Source: Candidatus Bathyarchaeota archaeon (lineage in GTDB: Archaea; Thermoproteota; Bathyarchaeia; 40CM-2-53-6). Taken from it: 7,993 nucleotides of DNA. The position numbers and the translations under genes are program-made. Numbering within the stretch: position 1 is the first letter of the stretch; every line of letters begins with the position of its first letter. The DNA lies in contig VBBQ01000007.1 in NCBI GenBank assembly GCA_005888755.1, positions 1-7,993 on the forward strand, in the 5' to 3' direction. Shown here one piece after another: positions 662 through 7,371 of this stretch. The notes under the pieces are model-generated. The model was not told the origin of the DNA. It searched no databases and saw nothing but the letters and a program-made list of their open reading frames with translations.

Positions 662-1402
662 ATGACTGAAAGGGGAAGAGATAGGAGATACGACGAACAA
701 GCAGCTACGATAGATTACGGAGGCGTGAGGGAGGGACGTGATCGACGATGCTCCCCCTTTGAAGGCTGGTCTTCGCTTAACGTAATAAGCAACCCGAACT
801 GTTTCGATTATCTCTTGCCCTCCCGTCTTATCGCGCTAGAAGGAATTGATCAAGCGGGGAAGAAGACTCAGACCAGACTCTTGTCGGCGAGCTTGCGCCG
901 GGAAGGGTTCAAGGTTGGCATTCTGAGCTTTCCGGTTTATTCTTCTAGTTCTGGACGGTTGATCCGATCCTTCCTCGCAGGGAGAACCGAGACCTCGCCG
1001 CACGCGCTGCACATGCTCTATTCCCTCAACCGTTGGGAAAACATGAAAACGATCACTGGGGCACTGAAAAAGAACGATTTCGTTATCTGTAACAGGTACA
1101 CTCCTTCCAATTTGGCTTACGGTGAAGCAAGGGGCTTGAGTGTCCAATGGCTCGCAGGCCTTGACGCGGGCCTCCCAGAATCTCGCGCGGTCTTCGTCCT
1201 AGACGTTCCTATTCCCAAGTCGTTCTCGCGAAAGACCCGGCGTCGAGACGTAAACGAGAGGGATCGGGCCTTTCTAGAGAAGGTGCGAAGAAACTACCGG
1301 TCTCTTGCCACGATATTTGGATGGCATCTCGTGGATGGCACGAAGCCTCCCGGCGAGGTTCACCAGCGAATACTTCTAGGTCTTCGAAGCGCTTTCCTCT
1401 AG
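662..1402 (+). CDS. tmk: Thymidylate kinase (dTMP kinase), possibly over-extended at the N-terminus
   Basis: The product phosphorylates dTMP to dTDP with ATP, a cytosolic step in dTTP synthesis. Seen in the 246-residue translation: a P-loop GIDQAGKKTQ (61-70); the substrate-side motif FPVYSSSSGRLI (90-101); YSLNRWE (120-126); VICNRYTPSNLAYG (141-154), matching the family DRYxxSxxAY motif with Asn for Asp; a LDVP strand (180-183); and a basic lid around KTRRRDVNERDR (191-202). The last P-loop residue is Lys68 rather than Ser or Thr, with Thr69 next; I recall this form from archaeal relatives. The first 51 or so residues have no counterpart in the family and contain GRDRR twice. A TTG at 815 would give a 195-residue protein starting just before the first beta strand, close to the normal family length. 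No clear ribosome site decides between them. The gene converges on the Lon-like gene with a 37-base gap. Confidence 0.85.
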   Translation: MTERGRDRRYDEQAATIDYGGVREGRDRRCSPFEGWSSLNVISNPNCFDYLLPSRLIALEGIDQAGKKTQTRLLSASLRREGFKVGILSFPVYSSSSGRLIRSFLAGRTETSPHALHMLYSLNRWENMKTITGALKKNDFVICNRYTPSNLAYGEARGLSVQWLAGLDAGLPESRAVFVLDVPIPKSFSRKTRRRDVNERDRAFLEKVRRNYRSLATIFGWHLVDGTKPPGEVHQRILLGLRSAFL

Positions 1403-1439: not shown

Positions 1440-3872
1440 TTAGTCTCTTGGTTTTCTGGAGAATTCTCCAAATTTTGTGATCTCTTCTGCCATTTCCGCA
1501 AGTCGTTTGTTGACCTTGAAATGAACCGTGTCTGGTTCATAAGACCCATCGTTCTTGAGTTCTCCCGCCTTTACGCCCGTCAAGATTTCAATACCTTCGT
1601 CTATCGTGCTTACTGGATAGATATGGAACCGTCCTTGTTTGACGGCTTCTACCACTTCTTCGCTTAGCATCAAGTGCTGGATGTTGCTTTTGGGTATGAG
1701 GACTCCTTCGTCACCCTTCAGTCCTTTGGCCCTGCATGTATGATAAAATCCTTCAATCTTCTCGTTGACTCCTCCAATTGCCTGAACCTCGCCCTTCTGG
1801 TTTACGGATCCAGTAACAGCGAAGTTCTGCTTGATGGGAAGGTCAGAGAGGGCGGAAAGAATCGCGTAGAGTTCTGTGCTGGACGCACTGTCACCGTCGA
1901 CTCCGCCATAACTTTGCTCGAAGACGAGTCTGCAAGAGACGCTCAAGGGTTTGTCACGAGCATACTTGTCCTCTAGATAACCGGAAATTATCAGGACTCC
2001 TTTCGTGTGTGTTTGTCCGCCTAGTTTGGCTTGGCGTTCAATGTCGATGACTCCTTCTCTGCCGAGACCGATGCTCACAGTTATCCTAGAGGGCTGGCCG
2101 AAGTCGAAGTCGCCGAGGCTGATGACGGATAGCCCGTTTACCTGCGCTGTCTTTTTCCCGGAGGTGTCGATGAGTATAACGCCTCTCTCGATCATTTCTT
2201 TGGTCTTTTCATCGAGGAGGTTGGAGCGGTAGATCTTCTCCTCTAACGCCTTCGCGATGTGGGTGTCCTTGATGTATTTCGACCGGTCCTGAGACGCGTA
2301 CAAGTTGGCTTCTCGAACAAGATCTGCTATCTCAGGGAATTTTGTGGAGAGCTTGGTCTGGTCCTCTGCTAATCTTGAACCGTACTCCACAACCTTTGCA
2401 ATCGCAGCTGCCTCGAGATGATTCAGTTTCTCATTCTCGCAAAGAGTGTGAACAAATCTTCCGTAGGTTTCCATGTTCTCATCACTCCTATCGATCGCGT
2501 CGTCAAATTGGGCTTTGACCTTGAAGAGCAGGCCGAAGTCGGGATCGGCGACATAGAGGGCCTGGTAAATCTGATGCTCACCCGCCAAAACGATTTTCAC
2601 GTTCAACGGGATAGGTTGCGGAGTGAGGCTCTTCGTGCTTGCAATGCCGAGCCTCTGGCCCGTTTCTTCAATGGATATGTTTCCGCTCTGAAGAGCTCTC
2701 TTGAGACTCTCATACGACAACTGGCTCGTTAGGAGCTCTCTAGCTCCGAGTATGAGGTAGCCGCCGTTTGCTTTGTGGATCGATCCTCCTTTGATCAGAG
2801 TGAAGTCTGTTGAGAGAGTTCCGAACTTGGCCTCGTTCTCGATTCTGCCGAGCAGGTTGGTTACCGTAGGGTTGTCTTCCGTGATCACGGGTGCCCCTTT
2901 CAAATCGGAATTATCTACGATGACATTGACTTGGTATCTTCTGTACAGAAGGTCAGGTAAGCTGCTCTCTGCGAGATTGGGTGGTGAGTCAGCATCCTTC
3001 TTCTGCTGTTCCGTCCCACTCACGGTGAACAGCTCGGTGTTTTCTAGGATGTCATCTCTCAGATCGTCGAGATACCGGATAACGTCGGGTTGATCCTGGT
3101 AACGTGAGGTTAGCGTGCTGATTAGGCCGCCCATCGCATAGTGGACCGTATCATCTCTGAGTTTCTTCAACTCGTCCAGAGTTTTCGCTTCGAGCTCGTT
3201 GACTTGTTTTCCGGCTTTGTCCAGTGCGTTTCTTACAGTCTCTCTACTCTGTTCGAACTTTTTCTTCACGCCGGCGGGTAGAGCGTCAAATTCCTCTTGG
3301 CTGACGGGCTTTCCCGCACGGATTGGAACTATTCCTATGCCCAGCTGGTTCATTCGGACAGCGTAGCTGGACTGTTTGGCTACATCGTTAAGCTCGTTGA
3401 GAATCCTGTCTCTCTCTTCAACCGATTTTTTGGTTATGCTGTTTGTTCGGGCTGCAAACTCTTCGCTTTGAAGAGCGGCTGGAACGGCTCTCTTGACCTG
3501 GTCTATGAGATTCTTCAGATCTTTCTGGAAGATCCTAGCCTTGCCAGCAGGAAGCTTGAGAGCTTTCGGCTCGTAGGGATTTTGGAAATTGTTCACGTAG
3601 CACCAGTCAGGCGGAGTAGGTTTGGTCTTGGCGATTTTCTCCAGGTAACTTCTGGTCGCGGGCCGCTTGCCGGTTACCGGAGGGCCGGCGGCAAAGACGT
3701 TGAATCCTTTGCCCTTCATCTCCATGCCGAAAGTCAGGGCCTTGAGGGCGCGATCCTGTCCAACAATCCCTTCGAGTGGAGCTAGTTCTTCGCTGGTCTT
3801 ACATTCGACCTTTCCAGGCGGGCATTCCAGCCGCAATTTTTCGGGAGGTAGCTCGTTGATTGGCAAATCCAA
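1440..3872 (-). CDS. Lon-like protease of the LonC/YcbZ (AAA_32) type with degenerate ATPase motifs
   Basis: The 810-residue protein has the order typical of this family: an N-terminal ELPPEKLR...LEGIVGQDRAL segment (7-43), a split AAA-like module, a long charged helical insertion (about 120-300, coiled-coil-like) between the Walker A and B positions, and a C-terminal Lon protease domain (about 570-770). The catalytic dyad is visible: Ser662 in DGDSAS and Lys705 in GGVNEKIEG. There is no membrane segment, unlike archaeal LonB. The ATPase side looks impaired: GPPVTGKR (63-70) in place of GPPGTGKT, GGYLILGAREL (370-380) with Gly where I recall the Walker B Asp, and DPDFGLLFKVKA (443-454) with Gly where relatives usually have Arg. 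Related LonC proteins are known to be ATP-independent, so this may be a soluble ATP-independent peptidase. The start is TTG: the frame is closed upstream by a stop near 3918 and has no ATG or GTG, and homologues begin just before ELPPEKLR. Confidence 0.88.
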   Translation of the reverse strand: MDLPINELPPEKLRLECPPGKVECKTSEELAPLEGIVGQDRALKALTFGMEMKGKGFNVFAAGPPVTGKRPATRSYLEKIAKTKPTPPDWCYVNNFQNPYEPKALKLPAGKARIFQKDLKNLIDQVKRAVPAALQSEEFAARTNSITKKSVEERDRILNELNDVAKQSSYAVRMNQLGIGIVPIRAGKPVSQEEFDALPAGVKKKFEQSRETVRNALDKAGKQVNELEAKTLDELKKLRDDTVHYAMGGLISTLTSRYQDQPDVIRYLDDLRDDILENTELFTVSGTEQQKKDADSPPNLAESSLPDLLYRRYQVNVIVDNSDLKGAPVITEDNPTVTNLLGRIENEAKFGTLSTDFTLIKGGSIHKANGGYLILGARELLTSQLSYESLKRALQSGNISIEETGQRLGIASTKSLTPQPIPLNVKIVLAGEHQIYQALYVADPDFGLLFKVKAQFDDAIDRSDENMETYGRFVHTLCENEKLNHLEAAAIAKVVEYGSRLAEDQTKLSTKFPEIADLVREANLYASQDRSKYIKDTHIAKALEEKIYRSNLLDEKTKEMIERGVILIDTSGKKTAQVNGLSVISLGDFDFGQPSRITVSIGLGREGVIDIERQAKLGGQTHTKGVLIISGYLEDKYARDKPLSVSCRLVFEQSYGGVDGDSASSTELYAILSALSDLPIKQNFAVTGSVNQKGEVQAIGGVNEKIEGFYHTCRAKGLKGDEGVLIPKSNIQHLMLSEEVVEAVKQGRFHIYPVSTIDEGIEILTGVKAGELKNDGSYEPDTVHFKVNKRLAEMAEEITKFGEFSRKPRD

Positions 3873-3896
3873 ACGCCGGTACCCGGTTCCTGGGAG

Positions 3897-3907
3897 TATT
3901 AGGAAAA
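3897..3907 (-). promoter_or_regulatory. Possible archaeal TATA-like element before the Lon-like gene
   Basis: On the minus strand TTTTCCTAATA lies 25-35 bases before the TTG at 3872. That is the distance expected for a TATA box serving a leaderless transcript that begins at the start codon. The match to the archaeal TTTAWA consensus is weak and no BRE stands out, so this is a positional argument only. Confidence 0.22.
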
Positions 3908-3950
3908 CTTGTGCTTCTTAGCTGGTAGGTTAATCAGCCGCCCAGCGGAT

Positions 3951-4130
3951 TCAGGGGTCAGTTGCCCTTAGGTTAGGGGAGAACGCTGTTGGGGGCACGG
4001 ACTTCATTCGCGACCTTCGCATCATTAACAAAGCTGTTACTAGTCCTCCCACAACTATCGTGGCCCAAATAGGGATGAAGTATCAATAGCGTTGTAAGAT
4101 GACCAACCATGGGGACTGCGGACATGCAAA
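3951..4130 (-). pseudogene. In-frame C-terminal membrane anchor behind two TGA codons
   Basis: The frame of the secreted-protein gene stops at TGA 4131-4133. It continues in the same phase for 15 codons (FACPQSPWLVILQRY), meets a second TGA at 4083-4085, then stays open for 43 codons to a third TGA at 3951-3953. Those 43 residues begin YFIPIWATIVVGGLVTALL and continue MMRRSR: a single membrane helix followed directly by a basic cluster and a short polar tail. That is the usual C-terminal anchor of archaeal surface proteins. The segment has no good start codon of its own before the helix. The simplest reading is that the secreted protein once carried this anchor and lost it by nonsense mutation or by compensating indels; sequence error is also possible. 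Confidence 0.5.
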
Positions 4131-4955
4131 TCATGAGGTCGATCCTCCCGTGATGAACTCATGTGCGTTCGAAGATTCGAACGCCCCAGTTGATGTGAAG
4201 TTCACTAACCGTGCGTTGTTAGTATAGTTTGCGAGAGAGTACTGGTAGAATTCCGTGTACTGGTTGTACGGGACGTGAAACTCGTCAATCCACATCCACG
4301 CGGATGATACGCCGAAGCCTGACTCCGAGTAGGTAGCTTGTCTTTCGTCGCCGTAATAGAGGCCGTTGTGGTATTGCTCGGTCATGAGTCCTGTGAAGAA
4401 ACCATTATGGTTTGTAGGATAGTTTCCGGTGGGCACGAAATCTCTTGCCCCAAAAGCATCGTAGCTAGTTTGACTCGATGCGTTAGTGTTCCAGTCATGT
4501 ACGTACATGGTAATATTGCTGCTCGAAAAACCGAGTCTCAAAAACACAAAGTCTCCGGGATTAACCGATATGGATCTCAGCATCGGTCGCCTTCCGTCTA
4601 TGTGTAAGCTCGATCCATTTGAAGAGAACACTTCGTAGATCGCGTCGAATCCCGAAAGTGTCGGGTAGACTGAGGATTTTGTGAGAATAGGCCATCTCCA
4701 CGAGAGACCAACTTGGTACCAATTGCCCATATCAGATAACCCATTCACGAGATATCCGATTCCTATGCCTTCAGTTCCACACTGTTCTGCAGCCGTCCCA
4801 TTGAAGGATAATTCGTGGAATGATTGGGCGAACGAAAGAGCGAGTTGCTCATCGTAGAGAGTTTGTCCAGAGGAACCGCTGGGAGCGAGTGTCCACCCAG
4901 TGCTTTGCATAATGCTAGCAGTCGGTAGCAGAAACAGCAACCAAGATATTCGCAA
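4131..4955 (-). CDS. Secreted beta-rich archaeal surface protein, function unknown
   Basis: The 274-residue product starts with a short basic/hydrophobic signal-like segment (RISWLLFLLPTASIM, 2-16), so it is probably exported. The mature part has few lysines, is rich in aromatic residues, Ser, Asn and Gly, and carries six N-glycosylation sequons (NGT, NGS, NIT, NAS, NYT, NFT), which fits life outside an archaeal cell. Recognisable landmarks are GIGYLVNG (64-71), NWYQVGLSWRWP (78-89), VNPGDFVFLRLGF (131-143), MYVHDWNT (150-157), GFFTGLMTEQYH (185-196) and SAWMWIDEF (218-226). I recall this pattern from uncharacterised archaeal proteins; alternating short strands suggest a beta-sandwich, perhaps concanavalin-like. 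A link to the G1 (Gln/Glu) peptidases is conceivable from Q81 and E193 but is not demonstrated. The start is TTG: the frame is closed upstream by a TAG and the only in-frame ATG (codon 16) would delete the signal segment. The gene is divergent from the hydrolase gene. Confidence 0.7.
   Translation of the reverse strand: MRISWLLFLLPTASIMQSTGWTLAPSGSSGQTLYDEQLALSFAQSFHELSFNGTAAEQCGTEGIGIGYLVNGLSDMGNWYQVGLSWRWPILTKSSVYPTLSGFDAIYEVFSSNGSSLHIDGRRPMLRSISVNPGDFVFLRLGFSSSNITMYVHDWNTNASSQTSYDAFGARDFVPTGNYPTNHNGFFTGLMTEQYHNGLYYGDERQATYSESGFGVSSAWMWIDEFHVPYNQYTEFYQYSLANYTNNARLVNFTSTGAFESSNAHEFITGGSTS
4165..4184. repeat. Perfect 9-base inverted repeat inside the secreted-protein gene
   Basis: GCGTTCGAA at 4165-4173 and TTCGAACGC at 4176-4184 are exact reverse complements separated by two bases. 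The RNA can form an 8-bp stem with a 4-base loop. It lies inside the coding region about 30 bases before the first TGA of the secreted-protein gene and encodes part of GAFESSNAHEF. No T-tract follows closely, so it does not look like a standard terminator. Confidence 0.6.
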
Positions 4956-4992
4956 GCGGAATCCCCGGGACCAGAACTGATGTCTCCCCTAG

Positions 4993-5005
4993 TCCTACCG
5001 TAGGA
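4993..5005. promoter_or_regulatory. Palindrome in the divergent promoter region, possible operator
   Basis: TCCTAC and GTAGGA flank a single C, giving a perfect 6-base inverted repeat. It sits in the 80-base divergent gap, 37 bases before the secreted-protein TTG and 30 bases before the hydrolase TTG. A dimeric helix-turn-helix regulator could bind there and affect both genes. No regulator is encoded nearby, and a repeat this short can occur by chance. Confidence 0.3.
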
Positions 5006-5035
5006 TCCGGTGTTGGCTTATCTAACCAGAGCTGT

Positions 5036-5908
5036 TTGAATTCTCTACTTTTTCCAATTTATACGCCTGAATCGGTGGGTCACCTTGACAGAGGCTTGAG
5101 CGACATCCTGGAGAGACCTCCGCCGAGCTTCGATAAACGTGTCAAGTATGGGCCGGATCCTCAGCTCTTTGCAGAGCTGCGCTTCCCTGTTGGACGGGGA
5201 CCCTTCCCGTTCTTGTACGTGATCCACGGCGGTTTCTGGCAGTCCACATATGACCTGTCGCACATTGGCCACCTCTGCGCCGCCTTCACCAGCAAGGGAA
5301 TCATTACCTGCAACCTCGAATATCGACGGCTCGGAGATCCTGGCGGTGGCTGGCTTGGAACTTTCCAAGATATTGGCCTCGCGACCGATCACATTCCGGA
5401 AGTAATCTCATCAGACCCACGCGTCGACCTGGCGAGAACAGCCGTCATAGGACATTCGGCTGGAGGGCACCTCGCACTATGGCTTGGAGGCAGACATCGA
5501 ATACCCAATGCGTCACCGCTACACGGCGCTCCGAGGAACCGTCTCGGCTGCGCAGTTTCACTGGCCGGCGTATGCGACTTAAGGACCGCGTGGAAGCAGA
5601 GGCTGGGAAACGGCATTGTTACAAGACTCATGGGCGGAACACCCGACCAGTATCCAGACCGATACGATGCCGGCAGTCCCATCGAACTCCTCCCCACTGG
5701 AACAAGACAAGTCCTAATCCACGGATCAGTCGACGACATCGTCCCGGCCTCTCAATCAGAAAAGTTCGTTGAAAGAGCCGAACAATTGGGCGAACATCCC
5801 ACCCTGATCAAACTCGATGGCATCGGCCATTTCGAGCTAATTGACCCAGAATCAGACGCGTGGTCCCCGGTCGTCGGAGCTGTTCTCCCCCTACTGGGCC
5901 TGAAGTAA
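5036..5908 (+). CDS. Alpha/beta hydrolase, BD-FAE/kynurenine-formamidase-like
   Basis: The 290-residue protein is a soluble serine hydrolase with no signal peptide or membrane helix. In order it shows the oxyanion-hole motif HGGFW (64-68), a conserved stretch LEYRRLGDPGGGW (94-106), the nucleophile elbow GHSAGG (139-144, Ser141), HGSVDDIVP (229-237, acid Asp233) and GIGHFE (262-267, His265), so the Ser-Asp-His triad is complete. HGGxW with GHSAG is typical of the kynurenine formamidase/BD-FAE esterase branch; the true substrate (formamide, acetyl or feruloyl ester, or other) cannot be told from sequence. No tryptophan-degradation genes are beside it. The start is uncertain: the TTG at 5036 gives the longest form, with GTG 5075 and TTG 5096 as alternatives. 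TTTATA at 5058-5063 would suit a transcript starting near 5087 and the TTG at 5096, which removes only 20 residues with no family counterpart. Confidence 0.85.
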   Translation: MNSLLFPIYTPESVGHLDRGLSDILERPPPSFDKRVKYGPDPQLFAELRFPVGRGPFPFLYVIHGGFWQSTYDLSHIGHLCAAFTSKGIITCNLEYRRLGDPGGGWLGTFQDIGLATDHIPEVISSDPRVDLARTAVIGHSAGGHLALWLGGRHRIPNASPLHGAPRNRLGCAVSLAGVCDLRTAWKQRLGNGIVTRLMGGTPDQYPDRYDAGSPIELLPTGTRQVLIHGSVDDIVPASQSEKFVERAEQLGEHPTLIKLDGIGHFELIDPESDAWSPVVGAVLPLLGLK

Positions 5909-6013: not shown

Positions 6014-6247
6014 TTAGTTCGTCTGGGATGGCACAAGCACTCTTGGGGTTTCATTACTTAGGAAGTTGCCACAGTACCGACACCTTTCTGCAAAGGACAG
6101 ATTCTCGCCGCAGCATTCTGGACATTTTCCAATTCCCTGCCCCAAGCTCAGCTTTGATTTGGATGATGGATGAGTCCTAAACCGTAAGACGACAAGGGAG
6201 CAGTTCCAGCCGCCATAAGGCCCAAAGACATGTTGGTAAGGGTCCAA
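6014..6247 (-). CDS. Small zinc-ribbon protein, 5' part probably frameshifted
   Basis: The 77-codon frame ends in a clear treble-clef-like zinc ribbon: CPEC (42-45) and CRYC (56-59) form a four-cysteine site with a 10-residue spacer, followed by GNFL and a short polar tail. Such ribbons are common at one end of small archaeal proteins and usually mediate protein or nucleic-acid contacts. The first 30 residues (DPYQHVFGPYGGWNC...) look less natural than the overlapping frame at 6148-6309, which encodes a tract resembling a membrane helix; one indel would join the two. If intact as written, the start is TTG 6247, the only usable codon. It follows the M48-like gene on the same strand with a 68-base gap, so the two are likely co-transcribed. 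No ligand or partner can be named. Confidence 0.55.
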   Translation of the reverse strand: MDPYQHVFGPYGGWNCSLVVLRFRTHPSSKSKLSLGQGIGKCPECCGENLSFAERCRYCGNFLSNETPRVLVPSQTN

Positions 6248-6315: not shown

Positions 6316-7371
6316 TTAGAGGGATCGCCGGACCGTCCATACTACGATGCTTATGCCCCCGATAATAGCCATCCAAAATCCGACAGCTGCGATGACGACA
6401 AGGGCTGCGCAAGTATTGTCCGCGCAAGCCACGTTGGTTTGGCCTCGAGCATAGAGGTTACCCGCGATGAACCCTGAGCCCCAGAAAGTAGCGAGGCCGA
6501 CAAGAACGATAATCGCACGTCCGCGGAGGCCTATTTTCGGAATTCTAGAAGGTCTTGGAAGACCCGCAAAGCGTGGGACGTTCAACTCTCCAATTCGTTC
6601 TTTGATGCTCGGGTTCCAGTGTGCTAGAAAGAAAAACCGGGGTATTACCATCGGCTCGAGATTCTGCATTTTGCCGAGAACCCGTGATACCTGCTCGGTT
6701 CCGAGCTGAGTGGCGACGCTCCTGTCCAGTTCAAACTCCCGTCTCTTCAAAGATTTTCTCAGGGATCTCCGGATCCAGAGCGCTGAGAGAAGGAATATTG
6801 GGCTCGGGAGAACAATAACCGGACCCGACAGTCCCCCAACGGCGGCAGCAGGGATGTAGAATAGCAGAAGGAAAAATAAGCCGCGGGGGACCAGAGCGAT
6901 TTTTCCGAGCAGCTTGCTTATCCTTCCTGAATTGTAGGCCTTGATTCTCACTAGGTGCATCGAGATGAGAATCTTCCACTCGTCTAGTGACAGTTTTCCT
7001 TTCAGGTATTCCACTAGCATAAGTTCGGCCTGGGGGAGTGACCCTGGAACGGTGAGAACTTCTCTGGAGAGGATCACTGGTTTTGATATCATCCAGCCTG
7101 TGCTGTTATAGCGGTCGAATCTTCCCCAGAAAATCTGTTTGTACCAGTACGGTATCTGGCATTGCACTGATAGTTCTCTTGTCAGCTGTAGGAGCGCGTC
7201 GTCTTCTGGACTCGGGTCTGTCTTGATTCTCTCGTACCAGCTAAGCCGGCGCAGCCGTTCCAAGAATGCTTGCCAGTGCTCTTCTAGCAATCTTATACGT
7301 ATAGTGGAACGATGAGCAGAATGGCTGTCGGGCCATTGTAAGAGACGGCTCAAATTGACGTGGACGCTCAA
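6316..7371 (-). CDS. M48-like membrane protein with the zinc-binding HExxH lost
   Basis: The 351-residue protein follows the layout of M48 (HtpX/Ste24-type) membrane metallopeptidases. An N-terminal cytosolic part (about 55-130) contains NSTGWMISKPVILSREVL, like the Nxxx..P.I.ls..lL strand of M48. The helix EWKILISMHLVRIK (131-144) aligns residue for residue with the M48 ELxAVLAHELAHIK helix, so HELAH is replaced by MHLVR (138-142). Two membrane helices follow (about 160-182 and 184-200), then REFELDRSVATQLG (211-224), which keeps the ExxxD motif as Glu212 and Asp216, then NPSIKERIGEL (253-263), equivalent to the HPxxxeRI motif. Two more membrane helices (about 286-306 and 322-346) end the chain before a basic RRSL tail. 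With both histidines and the glutamate changed it should not be a zinc protease, so a scaffold, chaperone or regulatory role is more likely. The start is TTG 7371; no ATG exists upstream, and TTG codons further in are alternatives. Confidence 0.65.
   Translation of the reverse strand: MSVHVNLSRLLQWPDSHSAHRSTIRIRLLEEHWQAFLERLRRLSWYERIKTDPSPEDDALLQLTRELSVQCQIPYWYKQIFWGRFDRYNSTGWMISKPVILSREVLTVPGSLPQAELMLVEYLKGKLSLDEWKILISMHLVRIKAYNSGRISKLLGKIALVPRGLFFLLLFYIPAAAVGGLSGPVIVLPSPIFLLSALWIRRSLRKSLKRREFELDRSVATQLGTEQVSRVLGKMQNLEPMVIPRFFFLAHWNPSIKERIGELNVPRFAGLPRPSRIPKIGLRGRAIIVLVGLATFWGSGFIAGNLYARGQTNVACADNTCAALVVIAAVGFWMAIIGGISIVVWTVRRSL

Follow-up and report, generated by a model that had tools for sequence, protein, structure and literature searches.

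A putative M48-derived pseudopeptidase family found in a single family of Bathyarchaeia

The window, by which we mean the whole 7,993-nucleotide stretch of DNA analysed here, makes up the whole of one contig (C48) in an archaeal genome of 2.0 Mb, for which the depth-in-centimetres names of several of the nearest Bathyarchaeota MAGs suggest a soil habitat. Besides the gene under study it encodes a LonC/LonB-like protease (1440-3872, minus strand), in which the Walker A motif reads GPPVTGKR, with no S/T after GK, and the serine-lysine protease part seems intact by eye, and a dTMP kinase ORF (662-1402, plus strand), the true start of which is probably internal since its Pfam match begins at residue 59 and the homologue at the corresponding locus of the nearest genome (L036) is called at 200 aa. 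The 1.2-kb stretch at 3856-5089 is absent from L036, which is otherwise 88-93% identical, and contains a secreted-looking ORF of 274 aa (4131-4955, minus strand) with no Pfam match. Hydrolase, Lon and dTMP kinase genes are common to the window and L036 only; neighbours of the gene under study differ between genomes, no conserved operon partner was found and, because the gene neighbourhoods are not conserved, synteny indicates no protease partner. A downstream zinc-ribbon ORF (6014-6247, minus strand, 77 aa) was considered as a partner and rejected, its copy in L036 being frameshifted and short of Cys codons; this ORF is probably decaying.

The features of the gene under study are as follows, with residues numbered throughout by the 351-aa ORF of the preliminary description (start at 7371), the protein itself having 315 aa.

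7264-7371, minus strand: in-frame stretch upstream of the TTG start and outside the protein; unconserved, with in-frame stops in five relatives
6316-7263, minus strand: coding sequence of the putative M48-derived pseudopeptidase, 315 aa, TTG start at 7263
6940-6981, minus strand: EWKILISMHLVRIK, former active-site helix (residues 131-144), which aligns with the M48 HExxH helix
6946-6960, minus strand: MHLVR in place of HExxH (profile alignment)
6844-6900, minus strand: predicted membrane helix 1 (residues 158-176; hydropathy), with positive charges before it
6772-6828, minus strand: predicted membrane helix 2 (residues 182-200; hydropathy), with positive charges after it
6724-6738, minus strand: EFELD (E212, D216), aligned with the M48 ExxxD motif
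6592-6615, minus strand: NPSIKERI, counterpart of HPxxxxRI (profile alignment)
6460-6516, minus strand: predicted membrane helix 3 (residues 286-304), part of the C-terminal extension
6343-6399, minus strand: predicted membrane helix 4 (residues 325-343; hydropathy)

The start at 7371 had to be abandoned. A TTG matching window position 7263 is kept in every orthologue compared and in-frame stops lie between this codon and position 7371 in five relatives (L036, L037, L038, L039 and L012), so the protein is taken to run from 7263 to 6316 on the minus strand. Hydropathy predicts four membrane helices, and the placement of positive charges predicts that the motif-bearing parts are cytosolic. The C-terminal extension with its two helices was seen in window-gene orthologues only, and the loop preceding membrane helix 4 carries two conserved Cys (VACxxNTCAAL).

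The preliminary description had read the protein as an M48-family member that has lost its metal site. Searches of Pfam and NCBIfam with the single window sequence returned no M48 match, and even the best relative (L025) scored 18.9 bits, below the curated cut-off of 20.3 for Pfam PF01435. Homologues gathered within the genome's own taxonomic family gave a profile of 50 sequences (A2), which HHalign matched to an alignment built from 19 genuine M48 proteins at a probability of 97.7% (E 1.6e-12, 195 columns), rising to 98.4% (E 9.5e-15) with gappy columns trimmed, whilst 14 reversed or locally shuffled controls reached at most ~6% probability. An independent and unbiased check, a six-frame search with A2 of 256 genomes of the class, gave nine matches outside the host family, all nine of them M48 proteins with an intact HExxH. 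To have taken the lack of an M48 match as decisive, as the preliminary description proposed, would have misled, because the single sequence fails where the family profile succeeds (98%, E ~1e-14). Sequence searches of the PDB were suggestive only, with ZMPSTE24 providing the top four matches to a further profile (A1; E ~0.13) and Ste24p matching A2 at E 0.29. As judged from these profile comparisons the window protein is homologous to the M48 metallopeptidases, and that it is M48-derived and not an HExxH-type protease we regard as close to certain.

A structure model built from a shallow alignment of six sequences was weak (mean pLDDT 57, pTM 0.49) and gave no significant Foldseek match at this low confidence. 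In a second-look structural alignment of the same weak model the best whole-domain matches were ZMPSTE24 and Ste24p, with Z scores of 7.6, 7.2, 6.7, 5.8 and 5.6 over 153-166 residues, which is consistent with an M48 fold at a level below decisive.

At the former active site the details given earlier held up well. The window protein does contain M138, H139, R142, E212, D216 and NPSIKERI. In the profile-profile alignment M138-H139-L-V-R142 falls on the H-E-L-A-H of genuine M48 proteins with no gap, and two membrane helices are predicted between the motifs (158-176 and 182-200) as had been proposed. HExxH, the motif for zinc binding and catalysis in M48 (PF01435), is replaced by MHLVR in the window protein, and it was found in none of 50 representative family members, most of which have S-S-L-(I/L)-(Y/F) in the motif columns. 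As to the earlier suggestion that homologues be examined for MHLVR-like residues, the orthologues of the window gene read x-H-(L/M)-(V/L)-R with H139 and R142 invariant in the ten compared. The retention of ExxxD holds in part: E212 and D216 stand in the window protein and in nearly all orthologues, whereas the wider family keeps the Asp only. D216 is found in 49/50 members, whilst the zinc-ligand Glu is E in 8/50 and otherwise mostly R, F, V or another residue; V replaces E212 even in L021, which clusters with the window gene in one clade. Similarly, NPSIKERI does align with HPxxxxRI and keeps the P and R, but has lost the H. W82, W132, G224 and R259 are nearly invariant across the 50 members.

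The window protein thus resembles M48 proteins such as HtpX and Ste24/ZMPSTE24 in domain order, in the position of the active-site helix, in the two helices between the motifs, in ExxxD (here EFELD) and in a PxxxxRI near the end, and differs from them in having MHLVR (SSLxY and the like in its relatives) instead of HExxH, in the disappearance of the zinc-binding Glu from most of its relatives, and in having no N-terminal membrane helices and an extra two-helix extension at the C-terminus. The closest M48 matches of the family profile are compact M48 peptidases of Bathyarchaeia (L139, L175-L179), which have the HExxH position, two helices, ExxxD and HPxxxRI in the same order, and of which L176-L179 have an equally short layout; unlike the family described here, all of them keep HExxH and ExxxD intact.

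In a tree calculated with the motif columns removed, a branch with an SH-aLRT support of 99 had all 50 family members on the same side, which fits an active site lost once in an ancestor, with radiation afterwards, as far as sequence can indicate. The profile detected the family in 18 of the 21 genomes of one Bathyarchaeia family, at about 1-9 copies per genome, and it was found neither in the rest of the class (256 genomes searched) nor among 398 genomes sampled from the phylum. The frame is open in all ten orthologues of the window gene that were compared, which reach down to 56-60% protein identity with the window protein, and dN/dS among them is 0.14-0.38. By these measures the gene is kept by selection for something other than HExxH catalysis. 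The proposal of a pseudoprotease is accordingly supported in its three components, namely M48 descent (profile-profile comparison with controls, and genome search), metal-site loss and selective retention (tree and dN/dS). A broken paralogue, frameshifted or stopped, lies elsewhere in the same genome (G000:C13:4707-5319) and shows that copies turn over.

Several family members carry additional domains. An N-terminal C2H2 zinc finger followed by two membrane helices is fused to the M48-derived domain in L074, in L089 and in one protein of G018:C333, a zinc ribbon is carried by L019, and extracytoplasmic domains are fused in L054 (residues 1-126) and L100 (C-terminal part); the latter two domains are weakly alike (40% over 40 aa) and neither had a Pfam match. 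The C2H2-two-helix module also occurs as a family of small zinc-finger proteins (L081, L082, L088, L104 and L039), with 1-7 copies per genome in the host Bathyarchaeia family; they frequently neighbour the M48-derived domain or are joined to it. Copies lay within 4 kb of family members in 15 of 44 cases, against about 1 expected, and in 7 of 36 cases for non-seed copies, against 0.75 expected (Poisson p 1.4e-5, a value too small by an unknown amount since some islands are the same ancestral one in different genomes). The genome of the window also encodes two intact M48 proteases (L001, which is HtpX-like, and L002).

On this basis we favour, with moderate confidence, a reading of the window protein as a catalytically dead, membrane-anchored descendant of an HtpX/Ste24-like M48 peptidase that acts as a non-catalytic adaptor or regulator. 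Its parts differ in strength. The absence of enzymatic activity of any kind is highly probable. Family-wide, the two His that bind zinc in M48 are replaced, as is the catalytic Glu, and the protein would be capable of neither catalytic zinc binding nor peptide hydrolysis. An adaptor or regulator role, argued by analogy, is the somewhat likelier outcome. A putative remodelled cytosolic groove, with H139 and R142 in the window subfamily and mostly S-S-L-I-Y in others, would bind a protein partner or substrate that is then presented, sequestered or regulated at the membrane, a possible partner being an active M48 protease of the same genome. What is bound or sensed would be set by the accessory parts, that is by the C-terminal two-helix extension in the window protein and by the C2H2-two-helix, zinc-ribbon and extracytoplasmic domains in its relatives. 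It is the extra domains, the linkage with the C2H2-two-helix module and the coexistence of intact M48 proteases that lead us to a modular binding or regulatory role. More tentatively, the metal site may have been lost once, in the ancestor of a soil-dwelling family of Bathyarchaeia, after which the M48 fold would have served repeatedly as a membrane adaptor or signalling domain without catalysis, joined to zinc-finger, zinc-ribbon and extracytoplasmic modules and reaching up to 9 copies per genome; this wider scenario is possible, and we would not put it as high as an even chance.

Pseudoproteases are a known kind of protein and are well studied in animals, the iRhoms being the classic membrane case (PMC6451368). 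Membrane scaffolding or substrate capture of the iRhom type, as the preliminary description suggested, is plausible by analogy: iRhoms likewise descend from a membrane protease, are inactive, have been retained by selection and have gained domains, and the M48-derived family would match them in its predicted inactivity. They differ (PMC6451368) in having the fold and ancestry of rhomboid serine proteases, in being eukaryotic and in having known clients (ADAM17). No earlier description of an M48 pseudopeptidase family was found in the open-access literature searched; what is new is a lineage-restricted family of apparently dead M48 proteins with unusual modularity, pseudoproteases as such being already known. 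Old, selected, lineage-restricted, expanded and modular, the family would provide a natural experiment in what becomes of a membrane protease fold once catalysis is gone. Since Pfam searches with single sequences do not detect it, its members would be taken for hypothetical membrane proteins.

The adaptor reading has to be weighed against a role in genomic conflict, in which the family would be a fast-turnover one concerned with defence, decoys or discrimination of self from non-self, its copies arising, breaking and disappearing, and would be accompanied by a second membrane family, of zinc-finger type, that also evolves fast. Copy numbers of 1-9, the occurrence of tandem and broken copies (e.g. 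G000:C13:4707-5319 and G019:C50:91992-92605), neighbourhoods that vary among genomes and the enriched linkage with the C2H2-two-helix module would all suit such a role, but a search for defence families gave no match of weight, a search for viral homologues of the window protein found none, and the window-gene orthologues are well kept, which leaves it a small chance of being correct.

The protein might alternatively still be an enzyme with a rebuilt site, either a Ser-pair hydrolase in the SSLxY members or one using H139, E212 and D216 in the window subfamily. Ser indeed occurs more often than any other residue in the first-His column and in the Glu column (27/50 each), H139 and E212 are invariant in the ten orthologues compared and D216 is almost universal. 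What speaks against a rebuilt catalytic site, and makes it the less likely reading, is that the family has no candidate nucleophile or ligand set in common: the Ser is replaced by P, A or G in many members and by M-H in the window subfamily, E212 is already lost in L021, and the near-invariant residue is the Asp alone, which is no zinc ligand in M48. We consider such an enzyme improbable.

A chance likeness between the M48 motif and an unrelated membrane protein, to which the failure of the single-sequence Pfam and NCBIfam searches might point, is rejected as far as sequence can do so by the reversed and locally shuffled controls and, given the profile-profile E of ~1e-14, the nine out of nine M48 matches outside the host family and the Ste24 proteins heading the structural matches of the weak model, has a negligible probability. 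Equally negligible is a decaying gene without function, a reading that could appeal to paralogues present as fragments or with stops and that is rejected for the window gene by its dN/dS and by ten open orthologues as divergent as 56-60% identity.

Two short fragments, L020 (G009:C167:10434-10520) and L031 (G001:C1:12451-12549), match the N-terminus of the window protein only; each lies ~240 bases from a C2H2-two-helix gene, and they may represent either remnants or reuse of the N-terminal domain.
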